Assembly: GCF_001610895.1 (NCBI RefSeq)
Contig: NZ_CP011273.1
Span: 1,860,001-1,924,000 of the forward strand
From: Planctomyces sp. SH-PL62
GTDB lineage: Bacteria; Planctomycetota; Planctomycetia; Isosphaerales; Isosphaeraceae
DNA: 64,000 nucleotides
Reading direction: 5' to 3'
The first letter of the stretch is position 1. The number at the start of each line of letters is the position of its first letter. The notes below the pieces were generated by a model. That model searched no databases, was not told where the DNA came from, and was given only the letters and a program-made list of their open reading frames with translations. This document shows positions 39,856 to 55,390 of the stretch, one piece after another. Position numbers and translations under genes: made by a program.

Positions 39856-41427
39856 ATGTTGACGTCCTTGAAAGCCGTGCGTCTCGCCGGCGCCGCCGCG
39901 GCCCTGCTCACCGGGTTCGCCTCGCCGGCGTGGGCCACCTACGGAGGTGGGGCTTGCCACTCGTGCGCCCCCGCTCCCGTCGTCGCAACCCAGTTGAGCG
40001 TGGTCGCCCTGGCCCCCCAGGTGCAGACCGTCTATCAGACGGTTTATGAGACCGTCTATGAAAACCAGCCCGTCACCCTCATGGAGACGCGGTATCGCAC
40101 GGCCTTGCAGACGGAGAACTACACCGTCATGCGGCCGGTCGTCGAGACCTCGTACGTCCAGCGCAAATACACGGTGTCCAAGCCCGTGTATCAAACCGTC
40201 AATCAGGAGCGCAAATACACGGTCATGAAGCCCGTGTATCAGACCGAGCGTCGCGAGCGCCGGTACACCGTCACCAAGCCCGTGTACCAGACCGTGAACC
40301 AGGAACGCAAGTACACGGTCATGAAGCCGGTGGTCCGCACCCAGCAGCTCGAGCGGCGCTACACCGTCGCCAAGCCGGTCTATCAGACCCAGAAGATGGA
40401 GCGGCGCTACTCGGTCATGAAGCCGGTGTATCAGACCGAGCGTCGCGAGCGCCGTTACACCGTCACCAAGCCCGTGTATCAGACCGTCAATCAGGAACGG
40501 CGTTATACGGTGATGAAGCCCGTGACCGAGACGGTCATGGTCGATCAGCCTTACACGGTCTGCCGTCCCGTCACCACGGTTCGCCAGGAGGTCGTGGAAA
40601 CCGGCTACTTCGAGCGGCAGTACACGACCATCCCCGGCCCCGTGGTCGAGCGGCAGGTCCGCGTTCCGGCGCCAGTGTGCGAGCCCTGCGGCTACGAGCG
40701 TCCTCGGGGCCTGTTCGGCTGCCTCCACAAGAAGAAGGTGACCGCGACGGTCGCGGTGCAGTGCCCGCCCCGGACGGTCAGCCAGCGGGTCTTCGTCTCG
40801 CGTCCCGTCACCCGCGACGTCTCCGAAACGACCTACGTCCGCGAGACCATGGTCCGCCAGGTGCCCGTCACTCGCTGCCGGTACGTCGCCGAGGAACGCG
40901 TCGAGTCGACCCCGGTGACCACCTGCCGCTACGTCGCCGAGGAGCGGGTCGAGCCCTACGAGGTCCAGACCTGCCGCTACGTCGCCGAGGAGCGGGTCGA
41001 GCCCTACGAGGTCCAGACCTGCAGCTACGTCAATGAAGAGCGGGTCGAGCCCTACGAGGTGCGCACCTGCGAGATGGTGGCCGAGGAGCGTTCCGAGACG
41101 ATCCCGGTGACCACCTGCAGCTACGTCGCCGAGGAGCGGGTTGAGCCCTACGAGGTCCAGACCTGCCGCTACGTCGCCGAGGAGCGGGTCGACACGATCC
41201 CGGTGACCACATGCAGCTACGTCGCCGAGGAGCGGGTGGAAAACGTCCCGGTGACGCAGACCCGCATGGTCGCCGAGACGGCCAGCCGCCAGGTCCCGGT
41301 GACCGTGGCCGAGCAGGTCCCGGTCACGACGAACCGCGTGGTCGCCCGTTACGTCCCCCGGACCGTGGCCGTCCAGCAGTACACGACGGTCCCCGTCGTG
41401 GTCCCCACCTGCCTGACCTGCTACTGA
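39856..41427 (+). CDS. YTV-repeat planctomycete cell-wall protein with a second Cys-containing repeat family
   Basis: A 523-residue exported protein with signal peptide (MLTSLKAVRLAGAAAALLTGFASPAWA). Residues about 88-240 hold about ten units of the YTV type, each near 16 residues, such as RYTVTKPVYQT and KYTVMKPVYQT. After a Cys-containing middle (about 270-330) come about nine units of a different repeat, such as TCRYVAEERVEPYEVQ. The YTV domain is known only from Planctomycetes, where such proteins are reported in the cell wall. Regularly spaced Cys (about one per unit) could form disulfide cross-links. Start 39856 is set by the signal peptide and GAGGAG upstream. Long leader and a double terminator suggest strong expression. 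Confidence 0.88.
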   Translation: MLTSLKAVRLAGAAAALLTGFASPAWATYGGGACHSCAPAPVVATQLSVVALAPQVQTVYQTVYETVYENQPVTLMETRYRTALQTENYTVMRPVVETSYVQRKYTVSKPVYQTVNQERKYTVMKPVYQTERRERRYTVTKPVYQTVNQERKYTVMKPVVRTQQLERRYTVAKPVYQTQKMERRYSVMKPVYQTERRERRYTVTKPVYQTVNQERRYTVMKPVTETVMVDQPYTVCRPVTTVRQEVVETGYFERQYTTIPGPVVERQVRVPAPVCEPCGYERPRGLFGCLHKKKVTATVAVQCPPRTVSQRVFVSRPVTRDVSETTYVRETMVRQVPVTRCRYVAEERVESTPVTTCRYVAEERVEPYEVQTCRYVAEERVEPYEVQTCSYVNEERVEPYEVRTCEMVAEERSETIPVTTCSYVAEERVEPYEVQTCRYVAEERVDTIPVTTCSYVAEERVENVPVTQTRMVAETASRQVPVTVAEQVPVTTNRVVARYVPRTVAVQQYTTVPVVVPTCLTCY

Positions 41428-47808: not shown

Positions 47809-48612
47809 TCAGGCGGCCAGGGGATCGGACTGGAATTCGCGGGAGGCGATCGCGACGATCCGGGGGTCGACGAGCGGCTTCCCCTCGGCGTAGGCGATCA
47901 GGAGGCCGAGGTCGGCGAGGTGGTTCAGGCGCCTGGGGACGCCTAGCGCGGCGCGATGGAGATCGGCGAGGGCGTCGGGGGTGAACAGGGGCTCGCGACC
48001 GCCGGACGCCGCGAGCCGCCCCTGCACGTACGCCGTCGTCTCCGCCAGCGTCAACGGCGGCAGCAGGCTTCGGGCCGTCAGGCGGTCCTGCAAGGTCGCG
48101 GGGAGTTGCAGCAAAACCTCGGCGGTGCCGACCAGGAGGAGCGAAAGGACGGGGAGGCCGTCGGCGTGGAAGTTGAGGAGCAGGCGGAGCGACTCGAACA
48201 CCAAGGCGTCCTGGACGAGCTGGGCCTCGTCCACGATCAGCAGCGGCCGCGCCCCGCGCGAGGCGAATTCCGCCAGGGCCTCGCGAAGCCGCCGCAGGGC
48301 CGACGCCATCGTCGGGGCCGCGACGGGCTCGCCGCCGAGTTCCTCCGCAAGGTGGACGAGGAGGTCGTGGGCGGGCATGGCCGGAAAGGTCAGGTGGACC
48401 GTCGGCGCGTCGATCTCGGCGGCGAGGCGGAAGGCCGCCAGGGTCTTGCCCGATCCCGAGCCGCCGTAGAGCAGGGCGGGGCCCAGGCCGTGCTCCAGGC
48501 CATAGCGCACGCGTCGAAGGGCCGCGTCCCGGCTGGGGAGCGGGACGTAGGCCGACGCGCGGGCGGTTTCGCCGAACGGTCGCTGTTCGAGACCGTAATG
48601 GGCTTCGTACAC
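47809..48612 (-). CDS. ExeA/GspA-like AAA ATPase
   Basis: A 267-residue AAA ATPase beginning YEAHYGLEQRPFGET, the typical start of the ExeA/GspA family and of the ATPase found beside PEP-CTERM/exopolysaccharide loci. Walker A is GGSGSGKT (about residue 50), Walker B LLIVDEAQLV (about 125), then sensor-1 LLLVGTAEVL and the arginine finger region LQDRLTAR. It probably drives assembly of an envelope or export complex. The start is GTG at 48612, with GGGGAGGA directly upstream. It lies 17 bases after the tyrosine-kinase-like gene and is the third gene of that operon. Confidence 0.85.
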   Translation of the reverse strand: MYEAHYGLEQRPFGETARASAYVPLPSRDAALRRVRYGLEHGLGPALLYGGSGSGKTLAAFRLAAEIDAPTVHLTFPAMPAHDLLVHLAEELGGEPVAAPTMASALRRLREALAEFASRGARPLLIVDEAQLVQDALVFESLRLLLNFHADGLPVLSLLLVGTAEVLLQLPATLQDRLTARSLLPPLTLAETTAYVQGRLAASGGREPLFTPDALADLHRAALGVPRRLNHLADLGLLIAYAEGKPLVDPRIVAIASREFQSDPLAA

Positions 48613-48629: not shown

Positions 48630-49420
48630 TCAGGCGAACGTCTCGGCGAGCCCGAGCAGGGGGACGCCGCCGGCTTCGAGCACCTCGCGAGCCCGCAAGA
48701 TCGAGCGCTCGCCGGTGGCGTCTCGGCTGTGGACCAGGACCGCCGCGTCGACCGAGCGATGGAGCACGGCCGCCGAGAGCCCGGCGAACAGCGGGCCGCC
48801 GTCGATCAGCACCAGGTCGAAATCGCGACGCAATCGGGCCATGGTGCAGGCCCAGGCGGCGCTCGCCAGGAAGTCCCTGGGCCGCGAGACCGCGGCGCGC
48901 ATCGGCAGGACCCAGAGCCGGTCGCCGGCCGACTCGATCAGCGCGTCCTCGACGGCCTTGCCGTCCTCGACCACGTCGTCGAGCCCGACGTCGCAGCGAA
49001 TCCCGAGGGAACGTCCGAGCATCGGACCGGAGAGGTCGGCGTCGACGAGCAAGGTCTTGATCGGCCGTCCCGCCAGGGCGCGGGCCAGAGTGAGCACGAG
49101 CGTCGTGCGGCCTTCGGCGCGATGGCAACTCGTGAAGAGAAGGACCTTGACTCCCTTGCGATCGCGGGCCTCGAGAATCCGGTCGGCCATCTGCCGGAAG
49201 CGATCGCCCCAGGAGCGTTCCAGAACGTCGACGACCTCGGGCCATTCGAGCTTGCCGGCGGGAGGGGGAGCCGGAGGCTGATACACCTGGGAGGGCCGCA
49301 CGGGGCGGGTCGCCGCGTGGACCGGTGCGGCGAGGGGACGCCGACGACTCCAGGTGCTCGATCGCCCTCGCGTCCTTGCTGGGCGTAGACACGGCTGAGC
49401 GCCTCGTCAACTTCCCTCAT
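48630..49420 (-). CDS. CpsD/BY-kinase-like P-loop ATPase, altered Walker A, apparently frameshifted
   Basis: About 263 residues if one base is restored. N-terminal piece MREVDEALSRVYAQQG starts at 49420 with an excellent GAGGAGG box; the ATPase domain is in the -1 frame and would otherwise have to start at a GTG at 49301 without ribosome binding site. The join lies near a run of four G (C on the coding strand) at 49334-49337. The domain matches bacterial tyrosine kinases of the Wzc/CpsD type: P-loop CHRAEGRTT, where Arg replaces the usual Lys; Walker A' LLVDADLSGPMLG; Walker B DLVLIDGGPL. There is no Tyr-rich tail. Such proteins control polysaccharide export. Middle gene of a three-gene operon. 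Confidence 0.72.
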
Positions 49421-50223: not shown

Positions 50224-51810
50224 TCAACGGCCTCGGAAGAAGCCGAAGAAGCTGCCGCGACGGGCCGTGGCGGGGGAGCCGTCGTAGCCGGGAGCGCCGG
50301 CGCCGGCGTTGGCCCCGGAGGGGGCGCCCGCGAACATGGTCCCGCCGACGCCCGGCAGGCTGCGACCGGCTTCGTACTGGGCGACGGGGAGGAACTCGGG
50401 GGGCTTGCCGGCGAACCGGGGGTTCGCCGCGCCGCCGTTGGCGAGGTCGAGCGACAGGACGTTCTCGAGCGTGACGTACGGGTTGTGCCCGGACCACTGG
50501 GATTCGAGGACCACCATCACGTTCAGGGGCGCGAACAAGGCCTCGCCGCCGACCGAGATCCAGTCGGCCGCGGCGGGATTGGTCTCGTCCACCCGGCCGT
50601 CCAGCCCGTATACCAGGCTGTACTCGTATTTGACGATTCGATCCTTCTCATCCTGCCCGTTGAGGGACGACCCCGTGTTGGCGTGGAGGTCGATCGAGAT
50701 CATGACGGCGCGGGGGCCGCGGCCGGGGATCGACTTGTACTCGGCGACGTACTTGTAGATCGCCTGGTTCCACACCTCCGCCTCCGAGCCGCGCGGCGGG
50801 AAGGCGCGCATGTTGGAGAGCAGGGCGATCCGCTCGCCGCGAATGTGGGTCTCGAGCATGGCGTGCACGCGCGAGACCTTCCAGTCGGTCGGGTCGGGGC
50901 CCGGGCGAGGGGGGCCGGCCGGGATGTCGGTGGCGTAATCGCCGATCCGGTGGTTGAGATGATTCTCGCCGAGCTCGGCGTACAGGGCCCTCAGCTCGTC
51001 CTTGGTCATGCCCGTGCCCGGGGCGGGGACGGGATCGTTGAAGCGGATCGACGCGACGGCGCCGCCGAGGCAGTGGCCCGGCCAGCGGCTGATGTCGTGA
51101 TTCTGCGTGTTGACCGCCTCCCAGATCCGCGCCGAGGTGCCGAAGAGCTGGTCGTACTTCAGCAACGGCGAGGGGGTCTGGAAGAGGGTCTTGTCGGGGC
51201 CCATCCAGAACAGGTCGTCATAGAGGTTGGGGAACCAGGTCGCGTCGTCCCCCGCGGCGGGCGAGGTCTCCAGGATCCCGTTCCGACCGGCCATGATGAT
51301 GTCCTGGCCCGGCGCGATGTAGCCTCCGGGCGCGGCGAGCCAGACGTCGTCGCCCTGGAGTTGCAAGGTGTCCACCCGCGCGTTGCCGCCGGCCCAGGGC
51401 TCGTGCAGCGAATCCGCCTTGGTCGGCCAGTAGTAGAAATTCCAGGGCTTCTTCGCGCTCTGGGCCGTCTGGACGAACTTGGTCTCGACCTTGTAACGCT
51501 TCTTGGCGCCGGCCACCTTGAAGGTGAACCATCCCTGCTGGTCGACGCCGACCTCCTGGCCGTTGGACCGGATCGCTCCGTTCGGCCCCTTGATCTCCTC
51601 GACGGTGCCATCCGTCGACTTGACGGTCAGCACGCCGCCGAAGCGCGTCGGGATATAGACCCCATAGTAATGCTCGCCTTCCCTGGCCTCGAGCGAGCCC
51701 CCCAATGGGACGGCGACGACTCGCTCTGTGGCGTCCGCCCGGGCGGTCGCCCCATAAAGGGCCGCGACCACCCCGAACATCGCACCACCGAGCCGAATGC
51801 CGATACGCAT
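50224..51810 (-). CDS. Secreted transglutaminase-elicitor-like protein
   Basis: A 528-residue exported protein with a signal peptide (MRIGIRLGGAMFGVVAALYGATARA). After a beta-type N-terminal region of about 120 residues comes a part resembling the transglutaminase-elicitor family (as I recall Pfam TGase_elicitor, from the oomycete GP42 enzyme and bacterial relatives): RWPGHCLGGAVASI with the candidate catalytic Cys at about 247, DELRALYAELGE, EVWNQAIYKYVAEY, and SIDLHANTGSS with a candidate His at about 375. Such enzymes form isopeptide bonds between Gln and Lys. Identification is by pattern and order, not by alignment. It is divergent from the Lys/Gln repeat gene, with about 690 bases between. 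Its own strong terminator follows. Confidence 0.6.
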   Translation of the reverse strand: MRIGIRLGGAMFGVVAALYGATARADATERVVAVPLGGSLEAREGEHYYGVYIPTRFGGVLTVKSTDGTVEEIKGPNGAIRSNGQEVGVDQQGWFTFKVAGAKKRYKVETKFVQTAQSAKKPWNFYYWPTKADSLHEPWAGGNARVDTLQLQGDDVWLAAPGGYIAPGQDIIMAGRNGILETSPAAGDDATWFPNLYDDLFWMGPDKTLFQTPSPLLKYDQLFGTSARIWEAVNTQNHDISRWPGHCLGGAVASIRFNDPVPAPGTGMTKDELRALYAELGENHLNHRIGDYATDIPAGPPRPGPDPTDWKVSRVHAMLETHIRGERIALLSNMRAFPPRGSEAEVWNQAIYKYVAEYKSIPGRGPRAVMISIDLHANTGSSLNGQDEKDRIVKYEYSLVYGLDGRVDETNPAAADWISVGGEALFAPLNVMVVLESQWSGHNPYVTLENVLSLDLANGGAANPRFAGKPPEFLPVAQYEAGRSLPGVGGTMFAGAPSGANAGAGAPGYDGSPATARRGSFFGFFRGR

Positions 51811-52497
51811 GATGCCTCCCGATACCGGTGTAGAGTTGATGACGCTACATCCTAGTCTAGCGCAATACCCGGACCGCGGACCACCGTGTCCTCGTCAACG
51901 GGCCCATGCTCTTCCGCCCCAACGTGCCAGCGGCTCCTTGCCAAACCTCCATCATGGTTCGGCTTCGAATCCGCTGCGGGGCGATCCCATTTGACCGGGT
52001 TCATGCACCCAGTCCCTTGAAACCCGGCAAAGACCCTAGAGCCCCCCAAGACGGCAAGTTCTCGAATCGACGATCTGATGTGGAACCCCGCTCGAGGGGA
52101 TTCACGCCCCGCATATCCATGACATTCGCCAAATTCACCAAAGCCCCCCAAGCCAGCAGGTTCTCGAATTTGTCAAGATCACTGGATGGGTCGGGGGGCG
52201 ATGCCGATAACCAGCAGTGGCCACCTCTGGGGTGGAGCATGGAACACGGCCAAGATGACCGGTTCAAGGCTCCCCTCACCGACCGAGGCCTGCCGGGCTG
52301 TCTCCAAAGAATGGAAGTGGGGACAGGCTTCACCTTCCGACCCTCGGGGACGAGGGTGAAGAACGAACGGGCGGTGGGGTCGGCGACCGGCCGGTGTCCT
52401 GGACACCAGCCAATCCCGGACCATCAGTGGAAAAGTCTGCTCACTCAGTCGATCGAGACGTCGACCGACGACCTCACTCATCACAGAGGACATCGCG
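51811..52497. other. Divergent intergenic region with two near-identical 28-base sites
   Basis: Nearly 700 bases, A/T-richer near 51800-52160. Contains two copies of AGCCCCCCAAG-N8-TTCTCGAAT at 52040-52067 and 52142-52169, and the palindrome at 52393-52407. Open frames cross it but have no ribosome binding site or protein-like composition. It must carry promoters of both the transglutaminase-like and the repeat gene. Confidence 0.55.
52393..52407. promoter_or_regulatory. Palindrome upstream of the repeat gene
   Basis: GGTGTCCTGGACACC: seven-base perfect arms around one base, about 90 bases before the repeat-protein start. Could be a repressor or activator site. Confidence 0.3.
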
Positions 52498-53415
52498 ATG
52501 ACCAGTGCGGTTCTAGTTGTTGCCCTGAGTGTCTCGGGCCAACTATTCCACAATAGTGCCCCGGCGAAGATCGCCCCGGCCCCCCAGGCCCCTTATAAGA
52601 TCGCCCCGGCCCCCCAGGCCCCGGTGAAGGTCGCCCCGGCCCCCCAGGCTCCGGCCAAGATCGCCCCGGCCCCCCAGGCTCCGGCCAAGATCGCCCCGGC
52701 CCCCCAGGCCCCGGCCAAGATCGCCCCGGCTCCTCAGGCCCCGGCCAAGATCGCCCCGGCCCCCCAGGCTCCGGCCAAGATCGCCCCGGCTCCTCAGGCC
52801 CCGGCCAAGATCGCCCCGGCCCCCCAGGCCCCGGCCAAGATCGCCCCGGCCCCTCAGGCCCCGGCCAAGATCGCCCCGGCCCCCCAGGCTCCGGCCAAGA
52901 TCGCCCCGGCTCCTCAGGCTCCGGCCAAGATCGCCCCGGCTCCTCAGGCTCCGGCCAAGATCGCCCCGGCCCCTCAGGCTCCGGCCAAGATCGCCCCGGC
53001 TCCTCAGGCTCCGGCCAAGATCGCCCCGGCCCCTCAGGCTCCGGCCAAGATCGCCCCGGCTCCTCAGGCTCCGGCCAAGATCGCCCCGGCCCCCCAGGCC
53101 CCGGCCAAGATCGCCCCGGCCCCCCAGGCCCCGGCCAAGATCGCCCCGGCCCCCCAGGCCCCGGCCAAGATCGCCCCGGCTCCTCAGGCCCCGGCCAAGA
53201 TCGCCCCGGCCCCCCAGGCTCCGGCCAAGATCGCCCCGGCCCCCCAGGCTCCGGCCAAGATCGCCCCGGCCCCCCAGGCTCCGGCCAAGATCGCCCCGGC
53301 CCCCCAGGCCCCGGCCAAGATCGCCCCGGCCCCCCAGGCCCCGGCCAAGGTCGCCCCGGCTCCTCAGTTCTTCCCGGCCCCCCAGGCCCCGGTGAAGGCT
53401 GCCCCCCAGAGCTGA
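52498..53415 (+). CDS. Secreted Pro/Ala-rich protein of tandem Lys/Gln decapeptide repeats
   Basis: A 305-residue protein. The first 20 residues contain a hydrophobic stretch (AVLVVALSVSG) that can act as a short signal peptide although it has no basic residue. Nearly all the rest is about 27 copies of APAKIAPAPQ; the second and third units (Y or V for A, V for I) and the last three are variant. Every unit has exactly one Lys and one Gln, giving a strictly periodic, extended chain with reactive Lys and Gln every ten residues. Start ATG at 52498 has AGAGGA eight bases upstream; a strong terminator follows. No other domain is present. A structural, probably surface, role is likely; a transglutaminase substrate role is proposed under findings. 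Confidence 0.78.
   Translation: MTSAVLVVALSVSGQLFHNSAPAKIAPAPQAPYKIAPAPQAPVKVAPAPQAPAKIAPAPQAPAKIAPAPQAPAKIAPAPQAPAKIAPAPQAPAKIAPAPQAPAKIAPAPQAPAKIAPAPQAPAKIAPAPQAPAKIAPAPQAPAKIAPAPQAPAKIAPAPQAPAKIAPAPQAPAKIAPAPQAPAKIAPAPQAPAKIAPAPQAPAKIAPAPQAPAKIAPAPQAPAKIAPAPQAPAKIAPAPQAPAKIAPAPQAPAKIAPAPQAPAKIAPAPQAPAKIAPAPQAPAKVAPAPQFFPAPQAPVKAAPQS
52561..53400 (+). repeat. Tandem 30-base repeat array inside the Lys/Gln-repeat gene
   Basis: Twenty-eight 30-base units in register, with CCGGCCAAGATCGCCCCGGC as the constant part. Differences between units are almost all synonymous (CCC/CCT, GCC/GCT in the CAG-flanking part), with three or four amino-acid changes confined to the first three and last two units. 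The block of identical internal units and variant ends is typical of arrays that expand and contract by recombination. Confidence 0.95.
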
Positions 53416-53504: not shown

Positions 53505-53890
53505 GTGGTGTTTCTTGATTTGATGCAACGGCCTCCCCGCCAGTCACTCCTCCCACACCTCGCCATTCCTCACCTCGTCCTCCCCCACTACGCCAAACGA
53601 CAGCCTGAAAACGCCTTAACTTACTGCGATTCAAGCCATTTGAGACGCAATAAGCGAGTCGGCGTCGGTCGCGTGTTCCTTGAAATCACCCATTGATGAA
53701 ATCGCCGACAAAACGCGCGCCAGCGACGGCGTGCCGGCAGAATACGACCTAGGCTTTCTGGCAGAGGTTGCATCAGAGACGCGAGCCCCGACGAAGAGGC
53801 GACCCGCCTCTCCATCAGGGACGCGCCGCCAGGGATAGACGAGAGCCGAGCTCGCCCACACGTTTCGCAACTCAAGGGAGTGCACCTACC
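53505..53890. other. Intergenic region before the matrixin gene
   Basis: About 390 bases, A/T-richer in 53510-53720. It holds the presumed promoter of the two-gene surface-protein unit, but no clear -10/-35 pair was identified. No small gene was recognised. Confidence 0.45.
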
Positions 53891-55390
53891 ATGCGACAAT
53901 CCCAGCGTCGCTCACGCGGTGGTCATTCGCCGGCCCCCGATCGCCGCTCGCGGCCGAAGCTGGAGGGCCTTGAATCGCGGCTCCTCCTCTACGCCACCCT
54001 CAACGCCAAGTGGAACTACGGGGAGAGGATCACCTACAGTTTCGTCCCGGACGGCACGACGCTCGGCGGGGTCCCCAGCACACTCTTCCAGACGCTGGAC
54101 GCTCGCTACTCGAGGACGACCTGGCAGGAGGAGATCGCCTCGGCGGCGGCCGTCTGGCAAAGGTATGCGAACATCAATCTCGTCCAGGTCTCCGACGCGG
54201 GCCAGTCCATCGGCTCTTCGGGTTGGCAGCAGGGCGACGACCGCTTCGGCGACATCCGGTTCAGCGCGATCCCCCTGTCGACCGGGACGCTTGGCGCGGC
54301 CTACTCGCCGCCGCCGATCAACGGCGGCACCCTGGCCGGGGACATCGTGCTCAACTCGTCCATCAGTTGGATGATCGACGCCCACTACGACCTGAAGACG
54401 GTCGCCATTCATGAGTTCGGCCACGCCCTGGGCATGAGCCATTCGCAGATCGGCCAGGCCGTGATGTGGTCGTATTACACGTCGATCAAGCAGACCTTGA
54501 ACTCCGACGACATCAGCGGAATCCGGTCGGTCTACGATCCCCGCGAGTACGACCACTGGAACAGCGGCGGTCGCAGCAACCTGATGTACTGGGACGCCGT
54601 GAGCATGGACGGCGCAAGGAACCCCGCCACGAATCAGATCACGGTGGCGAACCTCCAAATCACCGATCCGGGGCAGACCGAGTGGTACTGGGTCACGATC
54701 CCCAGCAACAACATCGGCCGCTTCTCCGCCACGGTCCAATCCACGAACCTGAGCCTCCTGGCGCCGAGGGTCACCGTCTTCGACGCCTCCCTGAACAGCA
54801 AGGGCGACAAATATCTGTACGGCTACGGCGGGACCGCCAAGGTCGACGTGACCAACGTCACGGCCGGGCAGGGCTTCTTCATCCGGGTGGCCGGCGGATT
54901 CGGCGGCTCGACCGGCGCGTTCGCGCTGCAGATCAACTTCAGCGCGAACGACATGCCCCCGGTCGCGCCGCCGTACACCAAGGTCCCCTACCAGATGGGA
55001 ACCGGAGGCGGCATCAGCACGATGGCCCAGGGCGAGGATCACGGTCACGATCACGGACTGGAGAGCGTCCAGATCGGCAATCTCCTCGCCTGGGGAGAAC
55101 CGCTGTTCGCCGTCGGCGTGGCCCGGCCCTCGCCGACGGCCCTGATGCGATTCGCCGCGTCCATGAGTCCATCTCCGACCGTCAAGACCGACTTCGGCCT
55201 CATGGCCGCGGCGGCGTCCGACGCGAGCATCCTCGGCGGGTGGGGAGGGGGCGCGTACGCGTTCTCTCCCGGCTGGAGCAGCGGATTCCCAACCTCGGCC
55301 GACTCGGTCGACCAGGCGTTGACGGTCTGGGGGGTCGACGGCGGTTTCGGCTGGTCTTCGGCCCTGAGGCGAAAGGGCGCGACCCATTGA
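53891..55390 (+). CDS. Matrixin-like (M10) surface metalloprotease with planctomycete LESR N-terminus
   Basis: A 499-residue protein. It begins with a basic region and KLEGLESRLLLYA, the LExR-x-LLxA motif common at the start of very large planctomycete exported proteins. Residues about 35-220 are a metzincin: ITYSFVP, AAAVWQRYANINLVQV, and the zinc motif HEFGHALGMSH (about 174-184) with a Met-turn-like VMWSYY. The C-terminal half contains a pre-peptidase-like beta domain (FSATVQSTNLSLLAP) and a His-rich patch (EDHGHDHGLE). Probably a secreted protease on the cell surface. Start 53891 follows AAGGGAG. The next gene begins 129 bases downstream. Confidence 0.85.
   Translation: MRQSQRRSRGGHSPAPDRRSRPKLEGLESRLLLYATLNAKWNYGERITYSFVPDGTTLGGVPSTLFQTLDARYSRTTWQEEIASAAAVWQRYANINLVQVSDAGQSIGSSGWQQGDDRFGDIRFSAIPLSTGTLGAAYSPPPINGGTLAGDIVLNSSISWMIDAHYDLKTVAIHEFGHALGMSHSQIGQAVMWSYYTSIKQTLNSDDISGIRSVYDPREYDHWNSGGRSNLMYWDAVSMDGARNPATNQITVANLQITDPGQTEWYWVTIPSNNIGRFSATVQSTNLSLLAPRVTVFDASLNSKGDKYLYGYGGTAKVDVTNVTAGQGFFIRVAGGFGGSTGAFALQINFSANDMPPVAPPYTKVPYQMGTGGGISTMAQGEDHGHDHGLESVQIGNLLAWGEPLFAVGVARPSPTALMRFAASMSPSPTVKTDFGLMAAAASDASILGGWGGGAYAFSPGWSSGFPTSADSVDQALTVWGVDGGFGWSSALRRKGATH

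Follow-up and report, generated by a model that had tools for sequence, protein, structure and literature searches.

A GP42-like predicted transglutaminase and a Lys/Gln repeat protein encoded as a divergent pair in Isosphaeraceae: a candidate protein cross-linking system

Introduction

In the cornified envelope of vertebrates, involucrin and the small proline-rich proteins, which contain Pro-rich Lys/Gln repeats, are substrates of transglutaminase 1; in the repeats of SPRR1 (KVPEPCQ), the spacing from Lys to Gln is six residues. Surface proteins are also welded by a transglutaminase in bacteria, i.e., by Tgl in the spore coat of Bacillus subtilis, where the substrates are ordinary coat proteins (PMC6490927). 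The GP42 transglutaminase of Phytophthora sojae, crystallized with its catalytic Cys mutated to Ser (PDB: 3tw5), has an active site composed of a CH motif plus either an Asn on a second strand or an Asp, and the PF16683-type (TGase_elicitor) group has been cited as a link between oomycetes and Vibrio (PMC10318531). Among envelope proteins of planctomycetes, the YTV proteins are repetitive and specific to the phylum, but they are rich in Cys rather than Lys and Gln, and no enzyme partner has been proposed for them (PMC8567305).

Here we describe a locus of Planctomyces sp. SH-PL62 (Isosphaeraceae), lying in a stretch of 64,000 nucleotides that was analyzed as a whole and is referred to as the window, in which a gene for a GP42-like enzyme is divergent from a gene for a repetitive protein carrying Lys and Gln. 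Like Tgl, the enzyme would be a bacterial transglutaminase acting on surface proteins, its activity being predicted; unlike the coat proteins, its putative substrate is a polymer of tandem Lys/Gln repeats whose gene lies alongside. The likeness to the vertebrate cornified-envelope precursors would be convergent; neither the sequences nor the organisms are related. Among the papers searched, none describes this enzyme/repeat pair, and a paper on the comparative genomics of Isosphaeraceae makes no mention of transglutaminase (PMC5352709).

Results

The Enzyme Is a Remote Relative of GP42

The features of the locus are listed in Table 1; the positions and divergent arrangement of the two genes are those given in an earlier reading made from the sequence alone (the sequence-only reading).

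Table 1. Features of the locus, with positions in the window
Feature	Position	Strand	Remarks
AAA ATPase (PF13401)	47809..48603	minus	Best NCBIfam match XrtA/PEP-CTERM-associated ATPase, below cut-off; conserved neighbor
Tyrosine-autokinase-like P-loop ATPase	48630..49301	minus	Best matches XrtA-associated/exopolysaccharide autokinases, below cut-off; conserved neighbor
GP42-like transglutaminase gene, predicted	50224..51810	minus	528 aa
Parts of the enzyme			N-terminal signal-like segment; beta domain, residues ~30-117; papain-like catalytic domain with GHC and VWN
Shared divergent intergenic region	51811..52497		687 bp
Lys/Gln repeat protein gene	52498..53415	plus	305 aa, 27 decapeptides
Tandem array encoding APAKIAPAPQ	52558..53367	plus	27 x 30 bp; Tandem Repeats Finder score 1333
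Matrixin-type metallopeptidase (PF00413)	53768..55390	plus	Conserved neighbor in many relatives

That reading had assigned the enzyme to the transglutaminase-elicitor family. The Pfam model (PF16683) gave it only 10.4 bits (E = 0.28), short of the gathering cut-off of 25, and weak matches in 12 of 22 homologues had an E value of 0.017 at best. By the gathering-score rule the enzyme is a non-member, i.e., a relative lying outside the Pfam family as drawn, and because the score was sub-threshold the label needed support by other means. Searches with the enzyme of PDB and Pfam sequences, NCBIfam, PADLOC and plasmids gave no significant match, and neither did Foldseek alone with a model of its structure. 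This AlphaFold model, built from a 34-sequence alignment, had a mean pLDDT of 75.7, and a match to GP42 emerged when it was re-aligned to PDB chains. The top chain was 3tw5, with a Z score of 17.2 (rmsd 3.2 over 254 residues) against 7.3 for the runner-up; IdeS/Mac-1 scored 6-6.5, and cathepsins near 5. With a second and less confident model (63.8) of an orthologue 53% identical to the enzyme, 3tw5 was again the best match (Z = 14.1), the runner-up (9.0) coming from a different domain. The comparison with GP42 that the earlier reading had called for was positive with both models.

We also compared profiles of the window enzyme family (A3), of three bridging proteins (A5) and of the true PF16683 set (A4). 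Using hhalign, A3 matched A5 over 379 columns with an E value of 7e-39, and A5 matched A4 with an E value of 6e-10; the direct comparison of A3 with A4 gave 6e-9, and that of A4 with 3tw5 gave 4e-31. The fold match and this bridging chain of profiles together supply the support for the label that the Pfam score did not.

Several landmarks are shared across these groups. The motif GHC-x-G is common to all of the bacterial groups compared, reading WWGHCNGW in planctomycete PF16683 members, and its counterpart in GP42 is W-F-G-I-C-H, the Cys being C290, replaced by Ser in the mutant structure. At the FH position the window enzyme has H316, and two of the bridging proteins lack it. The sequence EVWN includes N348 of the window enzyme, its VWN being what opens the Pep-13 stretch (VWNQ) of GP42, and a tyrosine-rich strand region is a further shared landmark. 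GP42 and the window enzyme are thus alike in the catalytic fold, the W-x-G-x-C context, FH, VWN and the tyrosine-rich region, but the window enzyme scores far below the Pfam cut-off, has a different N-terminal domain, and is a bacterial protein with a repeat gene as partner. Moreover, in the window enzyme and in planctomycete PF16683 members the His precedes the Cys (HC), as opposed to CH in GP42; with the His on the other side of the Cys, catalysis may differ from that of GP42.

The Cys in question, C247, is the only one in the ORF translation. The candidate Cys and His residues picked out in the sequence-only reading withstood alignment: C247 lines up with the GP42-family Cys, and C247, the adjacent H246 of the GHC motif and N348 of the VWN motif are invariant in 40/40 aligned homologues. 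In the AlphaFold model, C247 is placed near the start of a helix (residues 244-256), directly preceded by H246, and N348 is on a strand (346-360). The beta domain resembles pre-peptidase C-terminal domains, and inspection of the sequence shows a hydrophobic N-terminus. We conclude that the enzyme, though distant, truly belongs to the GP42/TGase_elicitor superfamily, forming a new branch outside the Pfam model, with a predicted transglutaminase activity.

The Repeat ORF Is a Coding Sequence with One Lys and One Gln per Unit

The sequence-only reading had counted about 27 copies of APAKIAPAPQ with a single Lys and a single Gln each. There are indeed 27 units, of which 24 match this sequence exactly, the rest reading APYKIAPAPQ, APVKVAPAPQ and APAKVAPAPQ, and one Lys and one Gln occur in every unit (27/27). 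Lys totals 28 and Gln 30 in the whole protein, from which Asp, Glu, Arg and Cys are absent. Its short hydrophobic N-terminus (MTSAVLVVALSVSG) lacks the positive charge usual in signal peptides, and the protein ends in a conserved tail (PAPQAPVKAAPQS). An NCBIfam candidate for its identity, Rv3852, was rejected: the match scored 29.8 bits, the cut-off being 100, and lay in low-complexity Pro/Ala/Lys sequence.

Between units, 34 of 41 base differences are silent in the annotated frame, compared with a random expectation of 28%; in the other five frames between 0 and 22 of 38-41 differences are silent, the best frame having 22/40. Because of this excess, we conclude that the ORF encodes a protein, is subject to purifying selection, and is more than a simple DNA repeat.

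Lys, Gln and Their Spacing Are Retained while the Repeats Diverge

In orthologues, a repeat unit may be as short as 10 residues or as long as ~40, and its sequence varies (KVAPAPQ, KVLPAAQ, KVTPAAQ, KVLPCPQ, KSLPSGQ), yet each protein contains 5-12% Lys and 7-12% Gln. The earlier reading would have been weakened by relatives with repeat proteins devoid of Lys or of Gln, and none was found among the orthologues. In 409 of 506 cases a Lys is followed by Gln at exactly the sixth position, shuffled sequences giving about one tenth, and no other Lys-to-Gln distance up to 15 exceeds 6%. This spacing would set the Lys and Gln side chains on one face of a three-fold polyproline helix. The start region and the tail are conserved, together with the spacing, across many genera. 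There are hardly any acidic residues or Arg, with the exceptions of L058, which is frameshifted, and L039; Cys is additionally present in the repeat proteins of four loci.

In L039 (genome G024) the divergent repeat, LPAAKQAVPADQRPD, keeps Lys and Gln, contains Asp and Arg, and has no six-residue spacing; its start codon is ambiguous. In the repeat gene of L058 (G002), a C6 tract within one of the early repeats is one base short, which turns the Lys/Gln reading into an Arg-rich frame with no early stop; sequencing error, decay and slippage-driven phase variation are alternative explanations.

The genome of the window also encodes a second, unlinked Lys/Gln repeat protein (L052:8953-10233), composed of ~20 copies of APTKVAPVAQ, in which 19 of 23 Lys have Gln at +6. 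Its gene is flanked by one for a squalene-cyclase-like protein and one for a TPR protein. Of the enzyme and the two repeat proteins, it alone has a canonical-looking signal peptide (MLRTRLFSVAAVALAASTAQAQ). Similar unlinked proteins occur in other genera (L175-L177, L179), and in that of G033 Glu replaces some of the Gln.

The Enzyme and Repeat Pattern Are Confined to Isosphaeraceae within the Class

The enzyme was present in 36/36 other Isosphaeraceae genomes sampled, and in 0/22 other genomes of the class. Of 45 Isosphaeraceae genomes, 41 contain the repeat pattern, which often recurs tens of times in one genome; among 204 genomes from the rest of the class, none had more than two matches, a background equal to that of the reversed control. 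Within the class genomes searched, both are thus confined to Isosphaeraceae.

A search of the phylum revealed true PF16683 proteins in 13/392 genomes, and distant matches to the window enzyme family in four genomes outside Isosphaeraceae. Those in G074 and G136 read as real relatives, G136 having a PF16683 protein as well; those in G114 and G324 were rejected, being short and inside unrelated-looking proteins. The true PF16683 proteins and bridging forms (L157-L159, L162-L174) belong to other planctomycete families, and several carry FG-GAP repeats or extended repeat domains at the C-terminus. Within a few kb of these true PF16683 or bridging genes, we detected no Pro-rich Lys/Gln gene like that of the window, so the pairing is a trait of Isosphaeraceae and not of all GP42-like enzymes. 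Near the true PF16683 gene in L171 (G227) there is a separate Lys-rich ORF with GAKKKAGAKKQ repeats, possibly there by chance and possibly histone-like.

The Two Genes Are Paired in Most Isosphaeraceae Loci

The upstream sequence was long enough for this comparison at 44 distinct Isosphaeraceae enzyme loci. In 38 of them the enzyme gene is accompanied by a divergently transcribed Lys/Gln repeat gene, 0.54-0.75 kb away where measured, which bears out the expectation of the sequence-only reading that the two would co-occur in relatives. The loci without this partner (L048, L059, L063, L068, L070 and L104) form three small groups in the tree. Five of these six enzymes are second copies, the other copy in the same genome being paired; from its grouping with L048, the second copy of G021, L104 appears to be an extra copy of the enzyme.

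The kinase-like and ATPase genes beside the enzyme are nearly as conserved as the pair, so part of the pairing reflects general synteny and is not proof on its own. The pair is, however, kept in L038 and L041-L043, where the other neighbors from the window were not found, the flanking sequence being shorter for L041 and L042. Tandem 16-residue Cys repeats of the YTV cell-wall type (CRYVAEERVEPYEVQT) occur at 40168-41304, ~9 kb from the pair, and such repeats are also seen near the enzyme in the relatives L056, L060, L061 and L046.

The intergenic region contains blocks conserved across the family, i.e., TGGTTCGGC, TGCCGATAAC...TGGCCACCCCTGGGGTGG at about -280 and TCGATCGAGACGTCGACCGAC at -48 from the start of the repeat gene, and these keep a fixed distance from that gene. 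In most of 37 loci the region is 543-611 bp long; the window and three other loci have longer copies, the extra ~100 bp in the window seemingly due to a partial duplication. The blocks may be regulator sites or an undescribed RNA. An Rfam search of the region found no family, and folding of the alignment of the conserved block revealed almost no covariation, so we make no claim for an RNA. A weak Rfam match to isrC lies downstream, on the opposite strand.

Discussion

We think it probable that the enzyme is a transglutaminase dedicated to the repeat protein, its polymer substrate, and that the two together form an isopeptide-linked extracellular matrix. Cys247 would attack the side-chain amide of a repeat Gln to form a thioester, which would then be passed to a repeat Lys to create a gamma-glutamyl-epsilon-lysine isopeptide bond. 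The substrate would be an extended Pro/Ala chain of the form K-x-x-P-x-x-Q with almost no other reactive side chain, and with ~28 Lys and 30 Gln per molecule it could set into a network, probably located in the cell envelope or in an exopolysaccharide matrix. The sequence-only reading had already proposed a transglutaminase with a Lys/Gln substrate, and the conserved active-site residues, the co-occurrence of the genes and the retention of Lys and Gln all support it; the chemistry, the export and the surface location we infer.

Papain-like folds are also found in proteases and deamidases, and the enzyme might instead process the repeat protein, by cutting it or by converting Gln to Glu, with no cross-linking. 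Deamidation is an established side reaction of transglutaminases, some drift from Gln to Glu is seen in one unlinked repeat paralogue, and IdeS/Mac-1 and cathepsins do match the fold, although more weakly (Z = 5-7). GP42 was nevertheless by far the best match with two models, and a protease or deamidase would leave unexplained the equally strict retention of Lys and Gln and the near absence of acidic residues. We consider this explanation unlikely.

We rate as rather improbable the idea that the two genes stay together because they share their regulation and inherited their adjacency within an exopolysaccharide locus. The enzyme would then have some other protein as its substrate, or would attach matrix amines or amino sugars to Gln, and the repeat protein would be a passive, cationic, polysaccharide-binding spacer. 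The exopolysaccharide kinase-like and ATPase-like genes conserved beside the enzyme are consistent with this, as are the conservation of the intergenic region itself and the polycationic chain that results from Lys without acidic residues. A polycation needs no Gln, however, and here Gln is kept at approximately 1:1 with Lys and at a fixed spacing; the pair also persists in the four loci where those neighbors were not found. Cross-linking accounts for the retention of both Lys and Gln with little else that is reactive, which the protease, deamidase and polycation models leave unexplained.

That the ORF is a non-functional or fast-drifting minisatellite, with Lys and Gln as by-products of a GC-rich 30 bp repeat, is very improbable and largely refuted, because, although the array is GC-rich and of low complexity, with several open frames and a frameshift in one relative, the silent differences are far more frequent in this frame than in the others, and the start region, tail and Lys/Gln spacing are conserved in many genera.

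A more ambitious version of the cross-linking proposal, which we regard as finely balanced, is that Isosphaeraceae possess a bacterial equivalent of the cornified envelope, made of a protein polymer that cross-links itself. A GP42-type transglutaminase specific to the family would weld the K-x-x-P-x-x-Q repeats of the protein encoded divergently beside it into a covalent protein layer, and in several genomes the second, unlinked repeat protein would serve as an additional substrate.

If the proposal is correct, an entire family of bacteria would join oomycetes and Vibrio as sources of GP42-like transglutaminases, and the pair would represent a ready-made enzymatic protein glue, in which the Lys-Gln spacing has been kept in evolution while much of the repeat has changed. 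What holds together the planctomycete envelope and cell aggregates is an old question, hitherto discussed in terms of protein-rich walls and YTV proteins, and an enzyme-substrate pair would provide a testable mechanism.
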